Source: Halobaculum halobium (GTDB lineage: Archaea > Halobacteriota > Halobacteria > Halobacteriales > Haloferacaceae). From it: 64,000 nucleotides of DNA. A program made the translations under genes and the position numbers. This document shows positions 13,111 through 59,162 of this stretch, one piece after another (the first letter of the stretch is position 1; every line of letters starts with the position of its first letter). Location: contig NZ_CP126158.1 of the NCBI RefSeq assembly GCF_030127145.1, positions 1,736,001 to 1,800,000 on the forward strand. The letters are read 5' to 3'. The notes below the pieces were generated by a model, which saw only the letters and a program-made list of their open reading frames with translations, was not told where the DNA came from and did no database searches.

Positions 13111-13452
13111 TCACCCGTCGGTCATCGTCCGCCACACGTCGTCGAGCTTGTTCTTCACCTCCGACCGCTCTTCCAACTCGACGGTTAACCCGTCTTGGAA
13201 CGTCACGTTCACACCGTCGACACACCGACGGTACACCTTGATGCGACGGTGCTCGTCGGAGAGCGGACGATCGTGGAGCTCCAACAGTTCGGTGTCCTCA
13301 AGCTCGTTGATCCGCCGGTAACAGGTGGCGATCGGTACGTCGAGCTGGTCCGACAGTTCCTGTGCAGACTTCGCCTCACCCGCCGCATCGAGAATCTCGG
13401 GGTTGTATTTCGTCCCCAGCACCTCGATGATCTCCTCATCGTCTGCAGGCAT
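13111..13452 (-). CDS. Winged-helix transcriptional regulator beside the archaellin
   Basis: The 113-residue protein contains a winged-helix domain (about residues 5-75): DEEIIEVLGTKYNPEILDAAGEAKSAQ in part, then the recognition region LDVPIATCYRRINELEDTEL and the wing SDEHRRIKVYRR. The C-terminal third looks like a dimerising segment ending VKNKLDDVW. The ATG at 13452 is chosen because CTTATC lies 31 bases upstream; a more distant in-frame start would overlap that box. It is divergent from the archaellin gene, and two copies of the dyad described at 13539-13599 lie between them, so it is the best local candidate for controlling the taxis regulon. That link is inference. Confidence 0.85.
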   Translation of the reverse strand: MPADDEEIIEVLGTKYNPEILDAAGEAKSAQELSDQLDVPIATCYRRINELEDTELLELHDRPLSDEHRRIKVYRRCVDGVNVTFQDGLTVELEERSEVKNKLDDVWRTMTDG

Positions 13453-13538
13453 AACTCTCAATACTGATTGTGCGTGTGATAAGCGTACCGCCTTCATTCC
13501 AGCTCCCTCGCCTGAATTTGGTACTGTTGACCTACCGG

Positions 13539-13599
13539 TATCTGTACCGATATTCGCCGTTCAGATATCTTTTCTGATAGGCGGCAGCGTAGGTTTAAA
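13539..13599 (+). promoter_or_regulatory. Archaellin promoter with two TATC-N6-GATA dyads
   Basis: Two perfect dyads occur: TATCTGTACCGATA at 13539-13552 and TATCTTTTCTGATA at 13566-13579, 27 bases apart. The nearer one starts exactly 28 bases before the TATA box TTTAAA (13594-13599). The predicted transcription start is about 13620, leaving a leader of roughly 45 bases, unlike the leaderless taxis promoters elsewhere in the window. Confidence 0.65.
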
Positions 13600-13667: not shown

Positions 13668-14261
13668 ATGTTCGAATTCATCACTGAGGAGGAAGAGCGC
13701 GGGCAGGTGGGCATCGGGACGCTCATCGTGTTCATCGCGATGGTACTCGTGGCGGCGATCGCCGCGGGTGTCCTGATCAACACCGCCGGCTTCCTCCAGA
13801 GCAAATCACAGGAGACCGGACAACAGTCGACCAAGCAGGTCAGCGATCGGCTCCAAGAAGTTGTCACCACCGGGAACGTCACTGACGGAACGGTGGATAA
13901 AGTGAACGTGACCGTCACACAGGCACCGGGTTCTGGCGAGATCGATCTCGAGAACGTGACCATCACCTGGGTCGGTCCTGAGGGGACGTTTATCCTGAAC
14001 CACGAGAATGCGTCGACCGATGTCGACAGCAAGTTCTACACGTCCTTCGTGAAGAACGCGGGTGGATCCCCTACGGTGCTGAACGATCCGGACGACCGTT
14101 TCAACATCGAATTCAGGCTGGACAACGGCGACGGGAAGCCGGACAAGCTCAATGAGGGCGACGAGGTGACGATCAAGATCAACACGATGGCCGGTGCGAC
14201 GACGACGATTCGATTCACCGTTCCTGAATCGCTCGACGGGCAAGGCGGCGTCGAGCTGTAA
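13668..14261 (+). CDS. arlA: Archaellin (archaellum filament subunit)
   Basis: The 197-residue preprotein has a short charged leader MFEFITEEEERG cleaved after Gly12 by the ArlK/FlaK peptidase. The class III signal helix follows, QVGIGTLIVFIAMVLVAAIA, and later AGVLINTAGFLQ, which forms the filament core. The outer beta domain carries four N-glycosylation sequons (Asn70, Asn80, Asn96, Asn114), fitting the N-glycosylated filaments known from Haloferax and Halobacterium. Only one archaellin is present here, whereas several haloarchaea carry two or more in tandem. It begins the archaellum region and has its own strong promoter. Confidence 0.96.
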   Translation: MFEFITEEEERGQVGIGTLIVFIAMVLVAAIAAGVLINTAGFLQSKSQETGQQSTKQVSDRLQEVVTTGNVTDGTVDKVNVTVTQAPGSGEIDLENVTITWVGPEGTFILNHENASTDVDSKFYTSFVKNAGGSPTVLNDPDDRFNIEFRLDNGDGKPDKLNEGDEVTIKINTMAGATTTIRFTVPESLDGQGGVEL

Positions 14262-15369: not shown

Positions 15370-15732
15370 ATGCCGACCAGCGTTCTGATCGCGGACGACT
15401 CGGAGTTCATGCGGAACCTCCTGCGGGAGATCCTCGAGGGGGAGTTCGAGATCGTCGGAGAGGCCGAAAACGGCGTGGAGGCGGTCGACCTCTACGGCGA
15501 GCACGCCCCCGACATTGTGATGATGGACATCGTCATGCCGATCCGCAACGGGATCGAGGCGACCACCGAGATCACCGACGAACATCCCGACGCGAGCGTC
15601 ATCATGTGTACGAGCGTCGGGCAGGAGGAGAAGATGAAAGCCGCGATCAAGGCGGGCGCGGAGGGGTACATCACGAAACCGTTCCAGAAGCCGAACGTGC
15701 TCGAAGCCATCAACGACGCCGTCCCCGCGTAG
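15370..15732 (+). CDS. cheY: Chemotaxis response regulator CheY
   Basis: A 120-residue stand-alone receiver domain with Asp9-Asp10, phospho-acceptor Asp53 in IVMMDIVMP, Thr81 in MCTSVGQ and Lys103 in ITKPFQKP. Phosphorylated archaeal CheY acts on the archaellum switch through CheF and ArlCDE. It starts the cheY-cheC-cheD operon, with cheC beginning 3 bases after its stop. It carries the taxis dyad promoter. Confidence 0.96.
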   Translation: MPTSVLIADDSEFMRNLLREILEGEFEIVGEAENGVEAVDLYGEHAPDIVMMDIVMPIRNGIEATTEITDEHPDASVIMCTSVGQEEKMKAAIKAGAEGYITKPFQKPNVLEAINDAVPA

Positions 15733-17613: not shown

Positions 17614-17647
17614 TATCGGGCACGATAATCCGCGGGATGGGTTTAAG
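17614..17647 (+). promoter_or_regulatory. arlCE promoter with taxis dyad
   Basis: TATCGGGCACGATA (17614-17627), within a longer palindrome TTATCG-GGCA-CGATAA, starts 28 bases before TTTAAG (17642-17647). The ATG at 17673 is 31 bases after the box, so the message is probably leaderless. The stretch from the dyad to the start codon closely resembles that of the arlI promoter, sharing GGTTTAAG, TCGGGGGTGT and GTAATG at identical spacing. Confidence 0.7.
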
Positions 17648-17672: not shown

Positions 17673-19154
17673 ATGGGTCTCCTCACCGCGCTACCGGGAG
17701 CAGGAGTCGGCGGGATCCCGGGGGCGGACGCGACACTCCTCGTCTCGTTCGGCCTCTTGGGAGCCAGCCTGCTCGATCGCTTCCGCGACGGCGACGACGG
17801 GCCCGGGGACGTCGACGACGGTGGCGACGATCTGCTCGGCGGCGACGACGGCGCCTTCGGCGGCGCCGACGGCGGCGGCGACGGCGACGACGACCTCGGT
17901 GACCTCGGCGGCATGGACGACTGGGACGACGACGACCCCTTCGGGGGCGAGGACGGCGGCGGAGACGACGGCGTCGCCGAGCTCGAGAAACGCGTCGACG
18001 ACTTGGAAAACGAAGTCGCGAGCCTGTCTTCGACCGTCAACACGGTCCGCTCGGAGAATGAGGAGATCTCCGGGAAAGTCGAGGACATGGGGGAGGACGT
18101 CCGCAGCCTGCTCGACATCTACGAGATGGTGACGCGGGGGATCAACCCCTTCGTCGACGACGTGCAGGGCGGCGGCGGCGGCGACTTCGGCGGCGAGGGC
18201 GGGTTCGGGCTGTTCGACGAAGCCGGCGGCGAGGAGGAGGACGAGGAAGACCTCGACGAGGACCTCGCGAGCGCCGACGCGGAGGGGTTCTTCGATGAGG
18301 ACCTCGCCGACGACGGGATGGACGACCTTGACGACCTGGAGGAAGACGACGAACTCGATGAGGACGGGTTCGACGACGACCTCGACGAGATGGACGAGGA
18401 GGACAGCTTCGACGACGACCTCGACGGCTTCGGGGACGACGACGCGGATGACACCGATTCAGATACCATGGGGACCGACAACGGCGGCGGAAAGAGTTTC
18501 AGCGAACTGAAAGACGAGTACGAGTCGGGCGACGCCGACTGGGACGAGGGCGAGGACGGAGACGAGGCCTCGGCCGACGGGGCCGATCCGCTCGACGCGC
18601 TCGACGCCGAGCCGGAGTCCAACGGCCACGACGAGGCCGGGGACCTCGGAATGAGCGGTGAGACGGAGCCGGACCCCGACCCGGACCCGACGCCTGAGTC
18701 GACGGCCGGACCCACAGATCCGAGCCGACGCGGGGAGGGAGTCGACAAGAACGGCGGCTTCGAGTTCGTCGAGGACGACGATCTCTCCGACGAGCCGGCG
18801 AAGCCGTACCTCACGAGTCTGCCCGGGGATTACGTGGGCGACCTGATGGTGATGGAGTGGCTGGAGTTCCTCGTCGAGGAGTCCACTACGACCGACGCGG
18901 TGCGCGCGGTCAACTACTACGAACGCGTCGAGTGGATCGACGAGGAGGTCGCAGACCAACTCAAGGGATTCCTCTCGGGGTTCGGCGACATCGATCGGAA
19001 CCTCATGGACCGCCCCGGAACCGACCACCTCGATCTAGACCACCACACCCGTAGCCTCAAGTACATCATGCAGCTGACCGACGCCACGGCCGAGTCGGTC
19101 GTCATCGACCGGTGGCCGCAGCTCTCTGGGGGCATGCATGGGCCTCAGCGTTAG
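17673..19154 (+). CDS. arlCE: Archaellum motor accessory protein ArlCE (FlaC-FlaD/E fusion)
   Basis: The 493-residue protein starts MGLLTALPGAGVGGIPG. After an acidic Asp/Gly-rich stretch, a coiled coil (about residues 105-155, VAELEKRVDDLENEVASLS and following) corresponds to FlaC. A very acidic linker (about 165-365) leads to the conserved FlaD/E domain (about 370-485), with KPYLTSLPGDYVGDLMVMEW and the end segment LKYIMQLTDATAE. ArlC/D/E form the cytosolic ring receiving the CheY/CheF signal. Haloarchaea usually also have a separate arlD, which is not seen here. The C-terminus overlaps arlF by 17 bases. Confidence 0.92.
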   Translation: MGLLTALPGAGVGGIPGADATLLVSFGLLGASLLDRFRDGDDGPGDVDDGGDDLLGGDDGAFGGADGGGDGDDDLGDLGGMDDWDDDDPFGGEDGGGDDGVAELEKRVDDLENEVASLSSTVNTVRSENEEISGKVEDMGEDVRSLLDIYEMVTRGINPFVDDVQGGGGGDFGGEGGFGLFDEAGGEEEDEEDLDEDLASADAEGFFDEDLADDGMDDLDDLEEDDELDEDGFDDDLDEMDEEDSFDDDLDGFGDDDADDTDSDTMGTDNGGGKSFSELKDEYESGDADWDEGEDGDEASADGADPLDALDAEPESNGHDEAGDLGMSGETEPDPDPDPTPESTAGPTDPSRRGEGVDKNGGFEFVEDDDLSDEPAKPYLTSLPGDYVGDLMVMEWLEFLVEESTTTDAVRAVNYYERVEWIDEEVADQLKGFLSGFGDIDRNLMDRPGTDHLDLDHHTRSLKYIMQLTDATAESVVIDRWPQLSGGMHGPQR

Positions 19155-20924: not shown

Positions 20925-20958
20925 TATCGTCGATGATAGCTCGCGGGGAGGGTTTAAG
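20925..20958 (+). promoter_or_regulatory. arlI promoter with taxis dyad
   Basis: TATCGTCGATGATA (20925-20938) starts 28 bases before TTTAAG (20953-20958). An ATG lies 31 bases after the box at 20984, but it opens a short ORF rather than arlI. Compared base for base with the arlCE promoter, the 36 bases ending at TTTAAG match at 27 positions without gaps. Confidence 0.68.
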
Positions 20959-20983: not shown

Positions 20984-21076
20984 ATGAGTACCACCCTCGT
21001 CGGGAGCCGGGGGCGCGGTGCCGTCACGCCCGACGACGGACGCTGGTCGTCGCCGGCACGGAGGTGTCTCCGATGA
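20984..21076 (+). CDS. Candidate leaderless mini-ORF coupled to arlI
   Basis: A 30-codon ORF starts MSTTLVGSRGRG at the exact point where the arlI transcript should begin and ends with TGA overlapping the arlI start as ATGA. A GGAGGTG ribosome site lies inside it at 21060-21066, 6 bases before the arlI ATG. The product is basic (many Arg) and has no recognised domain. It may be a leader peptide for translational coupling, or a remnant of a longer N-terminus. Confidence 0.45.
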   Translation: MSTTLVGSRGRGAVTPDDGRWSSPARRCLR

Positions 21077-24558: not shown

Positions 24559-24592
24559 TCTCCCAGCTGATACCGCGCACGAAACGGTTATG
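24559..24592 (+). promoter_or_regulatory. Orphan taxis-type promoter after arlJ
   Basis: In the 433-base gap 24499-24931, TCTCCCAGCTGATA (24559-24572) lies 28 bases before GTTATG (24587-24592), the same layout as the taxis promoters. No ATG or GTG is found at the expected 29-32 bases downstream. The first ATG (24670) opens a 124-codon ORF of non-conserved, Arg/Ser-rich sequence that runs into the cstA 3' end. I see no recognisable gene in this gap, so an untranslated RNA or gene remnant is possible. Confidence 0.4.
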
Positions 24593-35374: not shown

Positions 35375-37180
35375 TCAGACGCCGAAGTTGAACCCGCCGT
35401 ACTCGTCTTCGTCCTCGGTCCCGTTCGGTTCCTCGGCCGGCTCAGTCGCCGCTTCGGTCCGCTCGTCCGGTTCCTCGACCGATTCGATGGTGACGCCGTC
35501 GCCCTCGTCGCCATCGTCGTTCTCCTTGCGAACCGCGGACGCGTCGATGGTGATCCCGCCGTCGGTTCGGAACTCGTGGTCCGACTCGGCGTCCGATCCG
35601 TCGGTCGTGGCAGCGCTGAACCCGGCGCTTTCGGCGTTCTTCCCGCGAAGATCGGCCACGCGATCGGACAGCTCGGCGATGGCCTCGCTCTGATCGTCGG
35701 TCGCGGCGACGATGCGGTCGGCGGCGTGTTCGGTCTCGGTCGACCGCTCGCGGACCTCTTCGATAGTCGCAGTGAGCTCCTCGACGGTGGCCGCCTGATC
35801 GTCGGTCGCACGCGATACCTCGGTGATGCCGTCGGCGGCCTGATCGATCGACGACGCGATGTCCTCGAACGCCTCCAACACGTCGTCGATCTGGTCGGCC
35901 GCGTGGTCGATCTGCTGGTGGCTCTGCTCGGCGGCGACGACCGTCGAGTCGGTCTGGCTCTGGAGCTCCTCGATGTTCCCCGTGATCTGCTCGGTGTGCT
36001 GGCGGGTCTCGTCAGCGAGGGTCTTCACCTCCTCGGCGACGACGGCGAACCCGTCGCCGTCCTTGCCCGCGCGGGCGGCCTCGATGTTCGCGTTGAGCGC
36101 GAGCAGGTTCGTCTGCTCGGCCACGTCGGAGATGACCTCCACGACCGCCTCGATGTCGTCCATCCGGTCGCCGAGATCGGTAACTGAATCGACGAGCTCC
36201 TCGCCGATATCGGTCACCTCCTCGGTCGCCTCGCGTGCGTCTTCGCTGGCATCGAGCCCGTCGGTAGCTGCCTCGCGCGCCTGTCCGGCGGCTGTGTCGA
36301 CCTCTTCGGCGGTGGCGGCGACCTCCTCCATCGACGCGGAGAACGTCTGCATCTCCGAAACGCCCTCCGAGAGGAGGTCGTTCTGTTCACCGACGTTCTC
36401 GGCGATCTCCTCGGCGGCGTCGACCGCCTCCTCGACGGAGTCCTCCAGCCGCACGGTCCCCTCGTCGACGCCGGCGGCCGTCTCTTGGAAGGCGGCAGCC
36501 ATCTCGTTCAGGTCGTCCACCACCGACAGGAGCCGTTCGTCGAGACAGTCGTCCTCGAACTGGGCGCGCTCGCTGAGATCCCCGGCCATCAACGAGGCCA
36601 TCGTCGCGCTGAGTTCGTTCACCAGCGCTTCGGCGGCCTCCTGGCGCTGTCTCTCCTCGGTCCTGTCCTGGACCGTCTCGACGACCGCGATCAACTCGTC
36701 GTCTTCGTACAGCGGCATCGCGCTGAAGTAGATGTGGCGCTCGTCGCCGTACTGATCGGTCATCACGCTGGTGTCGGCGTAGAGCCACGTCGACTCGTCT
36801 TTCAGGTCGACACCGAACTCCTCGTGGACCGACTTCGGGTGCTCCAGCACCTTGTCCGCGAGCGTCTGCGCACGACGGCCGTCAGGGTAGAACATCTCGC
36901 TGGCGTGTTCGTGCCCGATCGCCTCCTCCGCGGTCGCCCCGGTCAGCTCCTCGATCGCCGAGTTCCAGGCGATGATCTCGCCGTCGCTGTCCACCATGAA
37001 CACGGCGGAGCCGACGCCGTCGAGCAGCAGGTCGTCGTCGATGTTCAGTTCGTCGTCCGAGTCCGCCTCCTGTGTCGGGATCGGTTCGCCGTTCGCCTCG
37101 ACAGTTACCCCACCGTCGGCCAGTGGCTCTTCTTGAGCCGTCCCGGCGACCCACGCGCGGAGGCGGGTAAGTAATGACAT
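35375..37180 (-). CDS. Soluble PAS-domain chemotaxis transducer (MCP)
   Basis: The 601-residue receptor has no membrane helix. A PAS domain (about residues 52-175, with AVFMVDSDGEIIAWNSAIEELTG in outline) precedes a HAMP-like/helical segment and a methyl-accepting coiled coil (about 225-500). The conserved signalling tip is VAEQTNLLALNANIEAARAG. It is followed by an acidic, disordered tail of about 90 residues. It likely senses an internal redox or metabolic cue and signals to CheA-CheW. The ATG at 37180 is fixed by an ATTAAA box 30 bases upstream; an ATG at 37213 would overlap that box. The promoter carries the taxis dyad. Confidence 0.93.
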   Translation of the reverse strand: MSLLTRLRAWVAGTAQEEPLADGGVTVEANGEPIPTQEADSDDELNIDDDLLLDGVGSAVFMVDSDGEIIAWNSAIEELTGATAEEAIGHEHASEMFYPDGRRAQTLADKVLEHPKSVHEEFGVDLKDESTWLYADTSVMTDQYGDERHIYFSAMPLYEDDELIAVVETVQDRTEERQRQEAAEALVNELSATMASLMAGDLSERAQFEDDCLDERLLSVVDDLNEMAAAFQETAAGVDEGTVRLEDSVEEAVDAAEEIAENVGEQNDLLSEGVSEMQTFSASMEEVAATAEEVDTAAGQAREAATDGLDASEDAREATEEVTDIGEELVDSVTDLGDRMDDIEAVVEVISDVAEQTNLLALNANIEAARAGKDGDGFAVVAEEVKTLADETRQHTEQITGNIEELQSQTDSTVVAAEQSHQQIDHAADQIDDVLEAFEDIASSIDQAADGITEVSRATDDQAATVEELTATIEEVRERSTETEHAADRIVAATDDQSEAIAELSDRVADLRGKNAESAGFSAATTDGSDAESDHEFRTDGGITIDASAVRKENDDGDEGDGVTIESVEEPDERTEAATEPAEEPNGTEDEDEYGGFNFGV

Positions 37181-37204: not shown

Positions 37205-37238
37205 TTTAATCATTACCGTCTAAGAATCACTCCCGATA
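37205..37238 (-). promoter_or_regulatory. Transducer promoter with taxis dyad
   Basis: On the minus strand TATCGGGAGTGATT (37238-37225) starts 28 bases before ATTAAA (37210-37205), and the transducer ATG lies 30 bases after that box. The right half has one mismatch (GATT for GATA). Confidence 0.55.
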
Positions 37239-57370: not shown

Positions 57371-58465
57371 TCACGCGCGCTCACCCGTGATTCCCGCGGC
57401 GATATCGTCCAGCGGAAGCACCGTGTCGACCGCGCCGGTCGCGGCCGCGCGCTTCGGCATCCCGTACACCACACAGGAGTCCTCGTCTTGCGCGAGCACG
57501 CGGGCGCCGACACGCGAGAGCGCCTGCACCCCGTCGCTCCCGTCGCCGCCCATCCCCGTGAGAATCACTCCGATCAGCGGGTCGTCAACGACGTCGGCGG
57601 CCGACTCCATCGTCACGTTCACCGACGGGCGCACGCCCTCGCCGCGCTCCTCGTCGATGACTGACAGGCGAAGCCGGCCGTCCCGCGCGTTCGTTATCTC
57701 CAGGTGGTGGCCGCCCTTGGCGACCGCCAGTTCGCCCCGGCCGAGGCGCATCCCGTCTTCGGCCTCACGGACCGAGAGTTCGCAGGCGTCGTCGAGGCGG
57801 TTCGCGAACCGCCCGGTGAAGGCCTCGGGCATGTGCTGGACGACGACGCCGCGGAGGTCGGCGTCGCCAGGCAGCGCCGAGACGACTCGCTCGACGGCGT
57901 CGGGACCGCCGGTCGACGAGCCGATGACCAGCGTCGTGTTCGGTTCGACGGCGGCGCCGGCGGACCCGCCCGCGGTCGACGCGCTCGGCGACGCCTGCGT
58001 CGCCCCGGCCGTCGCGGCCGTCGCGGCCTCGCTGCGACGGCGCCGTCCCGCTCGCGAGACATCCGCACTGGCGACCGACCGGACCGTCTCGACGAGCTGC
58101 TCCTCCATTCGGGAGACGCCCATCGACACCTCGCCGCCGGGCTTGGCAAAGAAGTCGACGGCGCCCGCGTCAAGGGCCGCGAATGTTTCTTCGGCGCCCT
58201 CGGCGGTGTACGCCGACAGCATCAGCGTCGGTGTCGGGTTCTCGGCCATCAGTCGCTCCACCGCCTCGATCCCGTTCATCTCCGGCATCTCGACGTCCAT
58301 CGTCACCACGTCGGGGTCGGTGTCGGCGACGACCGACAGCGCCTCGCGGCCGTCCGCGGCCTCGCCGACGACTTCGACTCCGTCGGACTCCAAGATGTCC
58401 GCGATGAGTCCGCGCATGAACCGCGAATCGTCCACCACGACCGTCCGCGGCGCCCGCGCGCTCAC
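57371..58465 (-). CDS. cheB: Chemoreceptor methylesterase/deamidase CheB
   Basis: The 364-residue protein has a receiver domain (Asp12-Asp13, phospho-acceptor Asp57 in VVTMDVEMPEMNG) and a C-terminal methylesterase with the catalytic Ser in IGSSTGGPDAVE near 183, His in VVQHMPEAFTGRFA near 212 and Asp in GMGGDGSDG near 308. An Ala/Thr-rich linker joins them. The start is a GTG overlapped by the stop of a 13-residue upstream ORF. It is the first full gene of the cheB-A-R-HEAT-cheF operon. Confidence 0.96.
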   Translation of the reverse strand: MSARAPRTVVVDDSRFMRGLIADILESDGVEVVGEAADGREALSVVADTDPDVVTMDVEMPEMNGIEAVERLMAENPTPTLMLSAYTAEGAEETFAALDAGAVDFFAKPGGEVSMGVSRMEEQLVETVRSVASADVSRAGRRRRSEAATAATAGATQASPSASTAGGSAGAAVEPNTTLVIGSSTGGPDAVERVVSALPGDADLRGVVVQHMPEAFTGRFANRLDDACELSVREAEDGMRLGRGELAVAKGGHHLEITNARDGRLRLSVIDEERGEGVRPSVNVTMESAADVVDDPLIGVILTGMGGDGSDGVQALSRVGARVLAQDEDSCVVYGMPKRAAATGAVDTVLPLDDIAAGITGERA

Positions 58466-58503
58466 GGCACACCCCCAGCCGGCCGTGCGGCGTCTCGAAT
58501 CAT
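58462..58503 (-). CDS. Candidate leaderless mini-ORF coupled to cheB
   Basis: The ORF MIRDAARPAGGVP starts at an ATG 30 bases after a TTCAAT box (58533-58528) and ends in a TGA overlapping the cheB GTG as GTGA. A GGGGGTG stretch inside it, 4 bases before the cheB start, may act as a ribosome site. The upstream operator spacing supports transcription starting at this ATG. The peptide itself has no recognisable feature. Confidence 0.45.
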   Translation of the reverse strand: MIRDAARPAGGVP

Positions 58504-58527
58504 GTCCTCGGCTACCGATACGCCGTT

Positions 58528-58581
58528 ATTGAAGACACCGCCCCGAATTTCACGGCTGATACCTCGTGCGCTACCGTTAAG
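58528..58581. promoter_or_regulatory. Shared divergent operator of cheB and cheW
   Basis: TTTCACGGCTGATA (58548-58561) starts 28 bases before the cheW box GTTAAG (58576-58581). Read on the other strand it is TATC-N6-GAAA, starting 28 bases before the cheB box TTCAAT (58533-58528). Start codons lie 30 bases after each box (cheW at 58606, the cheB mini-ORF at 58503). One dyad therefore has the same geometry toward both promoters. Confidence 0.7.
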
Positions 58582-58605
58582 CGATTCGCTCGGGCGATCG
58601 GTGAT

Positions 58606-59058
58606 ATGGCAAGCAGCGAGCGAGCGGCCGACGCGGACGCCGTCTCGACCGAGGAGACGACGCAGGTGTTGGAGTTCGGACTCGGCGACGAGACGTACTG
58701 TCTCGACATCGCCTACATCGACGAGATCGTCGATGCGGGCGACCTCACCGCGATCCCGAATTCGCCGCGCCACGTTGAGGGCGTGATGGACCTGCGGGGC
58801 AAGACGACGACGATCATCGACCCCAAGACGCTGCTGGGCGTCACTGGGACGGGGACGCGTGAGCGCATCATCGTGTTCGATCCCGACGAGGTCGACGACG
58901 GCGGCACCGTCGGCTGGGTCGTCGACGAGGTGTTCCAGGTCCGCGACGTGCCCGCCGACCAGGTCGACGAGGCGACGACCGCCGGCGACGACTCCGTCCG
59001 CGGCATCGTGAAGGGCGACGACCGGTTCGTCGTCTGGGTCGAACCGCGCACGGAGTGA
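58606..59058 (+). CDS. cheW: Chemotaxis coupling protein CheW
   Basis: The 150-residue adaptor joins receptors to CheA. After a 20-residue acidic start, the two SH3-like subdomains are seen: VLEFGLGDETYCLDIAYIDEIV, then IPNSPRHVEGVMDLRGKTTTIID with the conserved NxP/GxxxLRG motif, and ERIIVFDPDEV toward the end. Divergent from cheB and leaderless by promoter spacing. Confidence 0.95.
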   Translation: MASSERAADADAVSTEETTQVLEFGLGDETYCLDIAYIDEIVDAGDLTAIPNSPRHVEGVMDLRGKTTTIIDPKTLLGVTGTGTRERIIVFDPDEVDDGGTVGWVVDEVFQVRDVPADQVDEATTAGDDSVRGIVKGDDRFVVWVEPRTE

Positions 59059-59128: not shown

Positions 59129-59162
59129 TATCACTGCTGAGTCTCAGGGAGCAGTCCTTATC
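59129..59162 (+). promoter_or_regulatory. Promoter of the RAD55-like gene with half-conserved taxis dyad
   Basis: TATCACTGCTGAGT (59129-59142) starts 28 bases before CTTATC (59157-59162), and the ATG at 59186 is 29 bases after the box. The left half is intact and the right half is GAGT instead of GATA. Confidence 0.5.

Follow-up and report, generated by a model that had tools for sequence, protein, structure and literature searches.

The window, i.e. the whole stretch of 64,000 nucleotides of the Halobaculum halobium genome analysed here, contains a divergent cheB/cheW gene pair. cheB is the first full-size gene of a minus-strand run composed of cheB, cheA, cheR, a HEAT-repeat gene and cheF. 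The 14-mer TTTCACGGCTGATA is located between cheB and cheW. The features of the region are:

57371-58465, minus strand: cheB, true start GTG 58465 (PF01339 and PF00072, Response_reg)
58462-58503, minus strand: 13-codon mini-ORF MIRDAARPAGGVP; its ATG is 58 nt from the dyad edge and its TGA overlaps the cheB GTG (GTGA)
58470-58476, minus strand: Shine-Dalgarno-like GGGGGTG that precedes the cheB GTG and lies within the mini-ORF (identified by eye in Halobaculum)
58528-58533, minus strand: TATA-like box of cheB, TTCAAT, degenerate; most relatives have TTTAT at the same offset
58548-58561, no strand: dyad TTTCA-CGGC-TGATA, predicted CsmR-type operator common to both divergent promoters (from sequence, conservation, matrix and the motif of PMC13286277)
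58576-58581, plus strand: TATA-like box of cheW, GTTAAG, with TTA at +29 from the dyad start
58606-59058, plus strand: cheW (PF01584), ATG 58 nt from the dyad start, predicted leaderless

The two halves of the dyad match at 5/7 pairs, with TCA-N4-TGA as the core. Counting 28 bases from 58548 leads to 58576, the first base of GTTAAG on the cheW side. Counting 28 bases back from 58561 leads to 58533, where TTCAATAA begins on the minus strand, on the cheB side. The centre of the dyad, 58554.5, is the exact midpoint of both boxes and also of ATG 58606(+) and ATG 58503(-). As a TATA element, the cheB box is poor in Halobaculum, and a sister genus has an even poorer one.

The first-pass annotation had described this 14-mer as a single dyad centred between the two promoters, with each box at 28 bases and each start codon 30 bases beyond its box. 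The site is real, the distances to the boxes are arithmetically correct and the centring is exact. The start codon distance holds for cheW. For cheB, ATG 58503(-) had been misassigned: it opens an out-of-frame 13-codon ORF, and CheB starts at GTG 58465, 68 bases from the box. The 5' end predicted at about 58503-58506 would therefore belong to a message beginning with the mini-ORF. The dyad is single within the cheB/cheW intergenic region, but the element recurs at other motility promoters of the window. The earlier observation is thus partly confirmed; it was largely right, with the cheB start as the one correction.

Conservation of the dyad and its boxes

The set of cheB/cheW intergenic regions comprises 82 loci, 75 without duplicates, and represents 19 genera of the family together with a few other haloarchaea. 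cheB and cheW are divergent in all of them. In an ungapped alignment of the 75 loci, anchored on the dyad and the boxes, T-C-A is kept at 0.95-0.97, G-A-T-A at 1.0, and the central N4 is variable. TTA is found at +29 on the cheW side in 73/75 loci, and T at -18, A at -16 and C at -12 on the cheB side are invariant (75/75), counts that do not represent independent events because the loci are kin and the alignment is anchored on the dyad and the boxes. Two separate searches, one starting from cheW and one from cheB and neither using the far half-site, arrive at the same 14-mer in 75/75 loci. Dyad and boxes keep a near-fixed spacing throughout these 75 divergent loci.

A 33-nt matrix covering dyad, spacer and TATA box was trained on the cheB/cheW regions of other genera, Halobaculum being left out. 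Halobaculum excepted, the training loci are those of the conservation counts, and they share descent.

That the dyad is a chance palindrome in an AT-rich intergenic stretch would be in keeping with a match at just 5/7 pairs. However, TATCANNNNTGATA with at most one mismatch is found 4 times in the window, compared with 0.10 expected from dinucleotide shuffles. Genome-wide, a pattern search yields 22 sites of this type in 3.46 Mb, 4 of them in the 64-kb window and 1 lying 5 kb to its left. Conservation of the dyad across genera also argues against chance, as do paired scores that shuffled sequences never neared. With the matrix trained without Halobaculum, the paired two-way element scores 58.1 here and at most 11.2 in 300 block shuffles; the ten Halobaculum regions reach two-way scores of 54-60, whereas 300 shuffles of each never exceed 11.2. 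The probability left to a chance palindrome is negligible, and the comparative data have already refuted it. A scan for sigma-70 promoters found nothing, as expected for an archaeon.

Three Halonotius-like loci (L032, L034 and L035) have lost the far half-site. Their cheB and cheW genes are still divergent and csmR homologs, discussed below, are present. These loci offer a natural test case.

The element at other motility promoters

At the cheB/cheW site, the 33-nt matrix scores 31.4 in the cheB direction and 26.7 in the cheW direction, the third and fifth highest values of the window. The maximum in random sequence of the same dinucleotide make-up is 15.2 (6 x 64 kb). Nearly all other high-scoring sites of the window correspond to archaellum or chemotaxis promoters. 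The following copies of the dyad and TATA element were found:

13566-13598, plus strand: before the archaellin gene arlA (13668-14261); matrix 22.9; PF01917
15310-15342, plus strand: before cheY (15370-15732); matrix 35.8
17614-17646, plus strand: before the arlC/arlD-E-like gene 17673-19154; matrix 32.3
20925-20957, plus strand: before arlI (ATG 21073); matrix 30.3; NCBIfam archaellum motor ATPase
24559-24591, plus strand: weaker copy, without a recognisable gene behind it; matrix 21.5
37206-37238, minus strand: before a PAS-MCP transducer gene (Htr, 35375-37180); matrix 26.2
59129-59161, plus strand: weaker copy before the KaiC-like gene 59180/59186-59881; matrix 24.1; PF06745

cheY carries the element in 30/30 family loci examined. 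At arlI, the element and its mini-ORF are seen only in Halobaculum and are absent from other genera. The presence of the same element at arlA, cheY, arlC/E, arlI, the Htr gene and the KaiC-like gene points to a role wider than a private coupler of cheB and cheW. Judged from its sequence, the dyad is a general motility element that here would be used both ways.

In the rest of the genome, matrix sites of 19-28 precede a cetZ gene, an Htr gene, a 7TM histidine kinase gene and a short ORF. Before the CetZ tubulin gene, a CsmR-type element is followed by a 6-codon mini-ORF (ATGAGGAGGGGAGACGTATGA; L132:1990, minus strand; G000:C1, about 1164489). This element is strong in 3/4 Halobaculum and in a few other genera and weak or absent elsewhere; the mini-ORF is conserved in several genera, the element less so. 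Membership of cetZ is tentative since the element is weak or absent in most other genera. If cetZ belongs to the set, cell shape, through the CetZ tubulin, would be linked to motility. Another strong CsmR-type element is followed by a 30-codon hydrophobic mini-ORF (MNMKQMSALSVGMLCVLALGAAALVAVQVI; L129:1030, plus strand; G000:C1, about 1731029). This mini-ORF lies upstream of an apparent metallo-beta-lactamase-fold gene.

CsmR and its probable control of the two promoters

CsmR (HVO_1209) was described in 2026 as an archaellum and chemotaxis regulator of Haloferax volcanii (PMC13286277). In that report, CsmR is an Lrp/AsnC-like protein of 13 kDa whose gene neighbours those of the archaellins, and its ChIP-seq motif, TATCA(N4)TGATA with a TATA box alongside, is found in 50/65 peaks. 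A strain lacking csmR is non-motile and has higher levels of the CheB/A/R/F1, CheY/C/D and archaellum transcripts, a response that the authors explain in part by effects on the network. The dyad at 58548-58561 matches 9/10 specified bases of this motif. The one mismatch is at dyad position 2, which is T and not A.

A candidate gene is present in the window:

13111-13452, minus strand: csmR ortholog candidate encoding a 113-residue winged-helix protein (HTH_20, alignment, start choice); adjoins arlA (at 13668), divergent

The start that is common to the orthologs gives 113 residues, consistent with 13 kDa. HTH_20 is detected above the cut-off and HTH_24 just below it. The AlphaFold model, with a mean pLDDT of 45.8, is too poor for fold comparison. 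The gene is conserved in motile relatives. Close homologs are found in 84/86 family genomes carrying this cheW and in 24/33 genomes without it (Fisher p ~1e-4). On the basis of position, size (~13 kDa) and winged-helix family, we consider the 13111-13452 gene as a candidate positional ortholog of CsmR. Three dyad-like sites, at 13456, 13539 and 13566, are located between the csmR-like gene and arlA, one of them directly at the csmR start. Autoregulation of the csmR-like gene via these sites near its own start is possible.

The proposal in the first-pass annotation that one bound factor could set both directions is supported by the comparison, as the same dyad is retrieved from either side throughout the 75 loci. 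One factor for both directions is well supported at the sequence level, with CsmR as the candidate regulator. The 14-mer is probably the CsmR operator for both directions of a two-way promoter. We infer that Halobaculum CsmR binds 58548-58561 and acts on both promoters. For cheW, this regulation is extrapolated, and so is the first-pass idea that CheW is kept in step with CheB, CheA and CheR, since the main text of PMC13286277 does not mention cheW and ascribes the deletion effect in part to the network.

A dimer of CsmR, as a Lrp/AsnC-like winged-helix protein, would occupy TCA-N4-TGA. Its centre would be separated by 21.5 bp from the base at which either TATA box begins. This distance corresponds to about two helical turns, and the geometry thus suggests that the dimer is on the same helix face as TBP/TFB at both promoters. 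Bound just upstream of each TFB/TBP site, the dimer would face two nearly identical half-promoters, and would set cheW one way and the cheB-cheA-cheR-cheF run the other way. The same regulator would act at arlA, cheY and other archaellum or chemotaxis promoters with a one-way element. A position upstream of TATA/BRE would suit an activator, working by recruitment rather than by blocking. This conflicts with the Haloferax data, as PMC13286277 reports raised transcripts upon csmR deletion. In H. volcanii, cheB and cheW1 are also divergent, and transposon insertions between them, at three positions assigned to hvo_1224/25, gave motility and/or adhesion mutants (PMC5198076). These mutants independently support a function of the intergenic stretch, but do not single out the dyad because the insertions may just cut a promoter or a gene end.

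We also considered that the two promoters might be independent, the dyad serving one direction and its symmetry being a by-product of the divergent layout. The degenerate cheB box of Halobaculum would fit such an arrangement. So would the far half-site TCA, which is equally conserved at the one-way cheY promoter; conservation of both halves is thus, alone, no proof of two-way use. However, the box and spacer on the cheB side keep a fixed offset, with the invariant T, A and C described above, and in Haloferax the loss of csmR affects CheB/A/R/F1 (PMC13286277). Independent promoters are therefore unlikely. The identity of the binder raises a further alternative, in which another regulator, or several competing ones, would recognise the same half-site. 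The genome indeed encodes more weak csmR-like paralogs (E ~1e-9), and the Halobaculum site as well as the cheY sites prefer TTTCA/TCTCA over TATCA. Nevertheless, the motif, the TATA distance and the target genes all agree with the Haloferax CsmR set, and the csmR ortholog candidate sits in the same cluster, so that we regard binding by a different protein as improbable. CsmR acting in both directions from one dyad is the reading retained below.

An argument from polarity, according to which the far half-site decays at one-way promoters and persists only at the shared one, was dropped. Mixed one-way sites of the Halobaculum genome had seemed to show such a decay, but the cheY orthologs keep TCA in 24/24 cases.

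Mini-ORFs and the start of cheB

In 72/75 loci, there is an ATG on the cheB side at a distance of 54-68 nt from the edge of the dyad. In 59/75 loci, it opens a 13-53-codon ORF ending on the cheB start, this start being taken in each genome as the in-frame start closest to the mini-ORF stop, with no independent fixing. The overlap is 4 nt in 43 of the 75 loci, 8 nt in 13 and 11 or 14 nt in 3; a 4-nt overlap is likely once the frame is right, because the start codon is followed by A, and the genomes are also related. The ATG is in frame with cheB in 12 loci (one genus and one other genome), and the ORF ends early in 1 locus. As a frame control, the other two frames from the same place give such an overlap in 16/72 and 17/72 loci. 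The length and the peptide of the mini-ORF vary among genera; what is kept is where it begins, close to the predicted 5' end of the transcript, and where it stops, on the cheB start. In the cheW direction, the corresponding ATG is that of cheW itself in 44/75 loci. In one genus, a 17-19-codon ORF ends on cheW with ATGA.

The arlI gene of the window is preceded by a 30-codon mini-ORF (MSTTLVGSRGRGAVTPDDGRWSSPARRCLR; 20984-21076, plus strand) whose stop forms a 4-nt overlap with the arlI ATG, preceded by GGAGGTG. In Halobaculum, cetZ and arlI show the same mini-ORF arrangement as cheB.

A mini-ORF ending on the cheB start suggests translational coupling. In H. volcanii, most transcripts (72%) are leaderless (PMC4983044). 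This organism does not use Shine-Dalgarno motifs on 5'-UTRs (PMC3986360), but reinitiation at overlapping genes does make use of them (PMC6728339). Several relatives have GGAGGTG before the cheB start. Together with GGGGGTG in Halobaculum, this motif would fit reinitiation from the mini-ORF.

A somewhat better than even case can be made for the following model. In CsmR-type promoters, both the dyad-TATA distance and the position of an ATG, about 58 nt away from the edge of the dyad, would be fixed. If the gene starts further downstream, as for cheB in most sampled haloarchaea, arlI and cetZ in Halobaculum and cheW in one genus, a leaderless mini-ORF opened by that ATG would end on the gene start and feed ribosomes to it by termination-reinitiation. 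The start and stop positions of the mini-ORF would be conserved, but its peptide would not. If this is true, CsmR and mini-ORF coupling would together determine the output of CheB.

Known termination-reinitiation pairs (PMC6728339) share with this arrangement the 4-nt ATGA/GTGA overlap and the SD-like motif before the downstream start. Here, the upstream cistron is a mini-ORF of 13-53 codons with a drifting peptide, predicted to be leaderless. As for the dyad, the CsmR sites of Haloferax volcanii, as presented in PMC13286277, have the same TCA-N4-TGATA core, the same short fixed TATA distance and archaellum and chemotaxis targets, and csmR is located by the archaellins in both cases. The Halobaculum site differs in that one site faces two promoters and in its left half, TTTCA. 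Neither a common cheB/cheW site nor the dyad-to-ATG geometry is described in the main text of that report. EarA sites at euryarchaeal arl promoters are similar in that a winged-helix regulator is positioned upstream of a motility promoter; EarA is missing from haloarchaea and unrelated to CsmR, according to PMC13286277.

Taken from its sequence and conservation, 58548-58561 belongs to the family of CsmR sites, is well conserved and is apparently used in both directions. One operator would thereby join the adaptor CheW to CheA-CheB-CheR, and the same element is found at the promoters of archaellin, CheY and archaellum motor genes. The regulator, known from a single species, would be extended across the family, with a testable geometry. 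With one site and two outputs, the locus offers a clean setting for the activator/repressor paradox raised by CsmR in Haloferax, and the conserved cheB mini-ORF a simple test of coupling through leaderless mini-cistrons.
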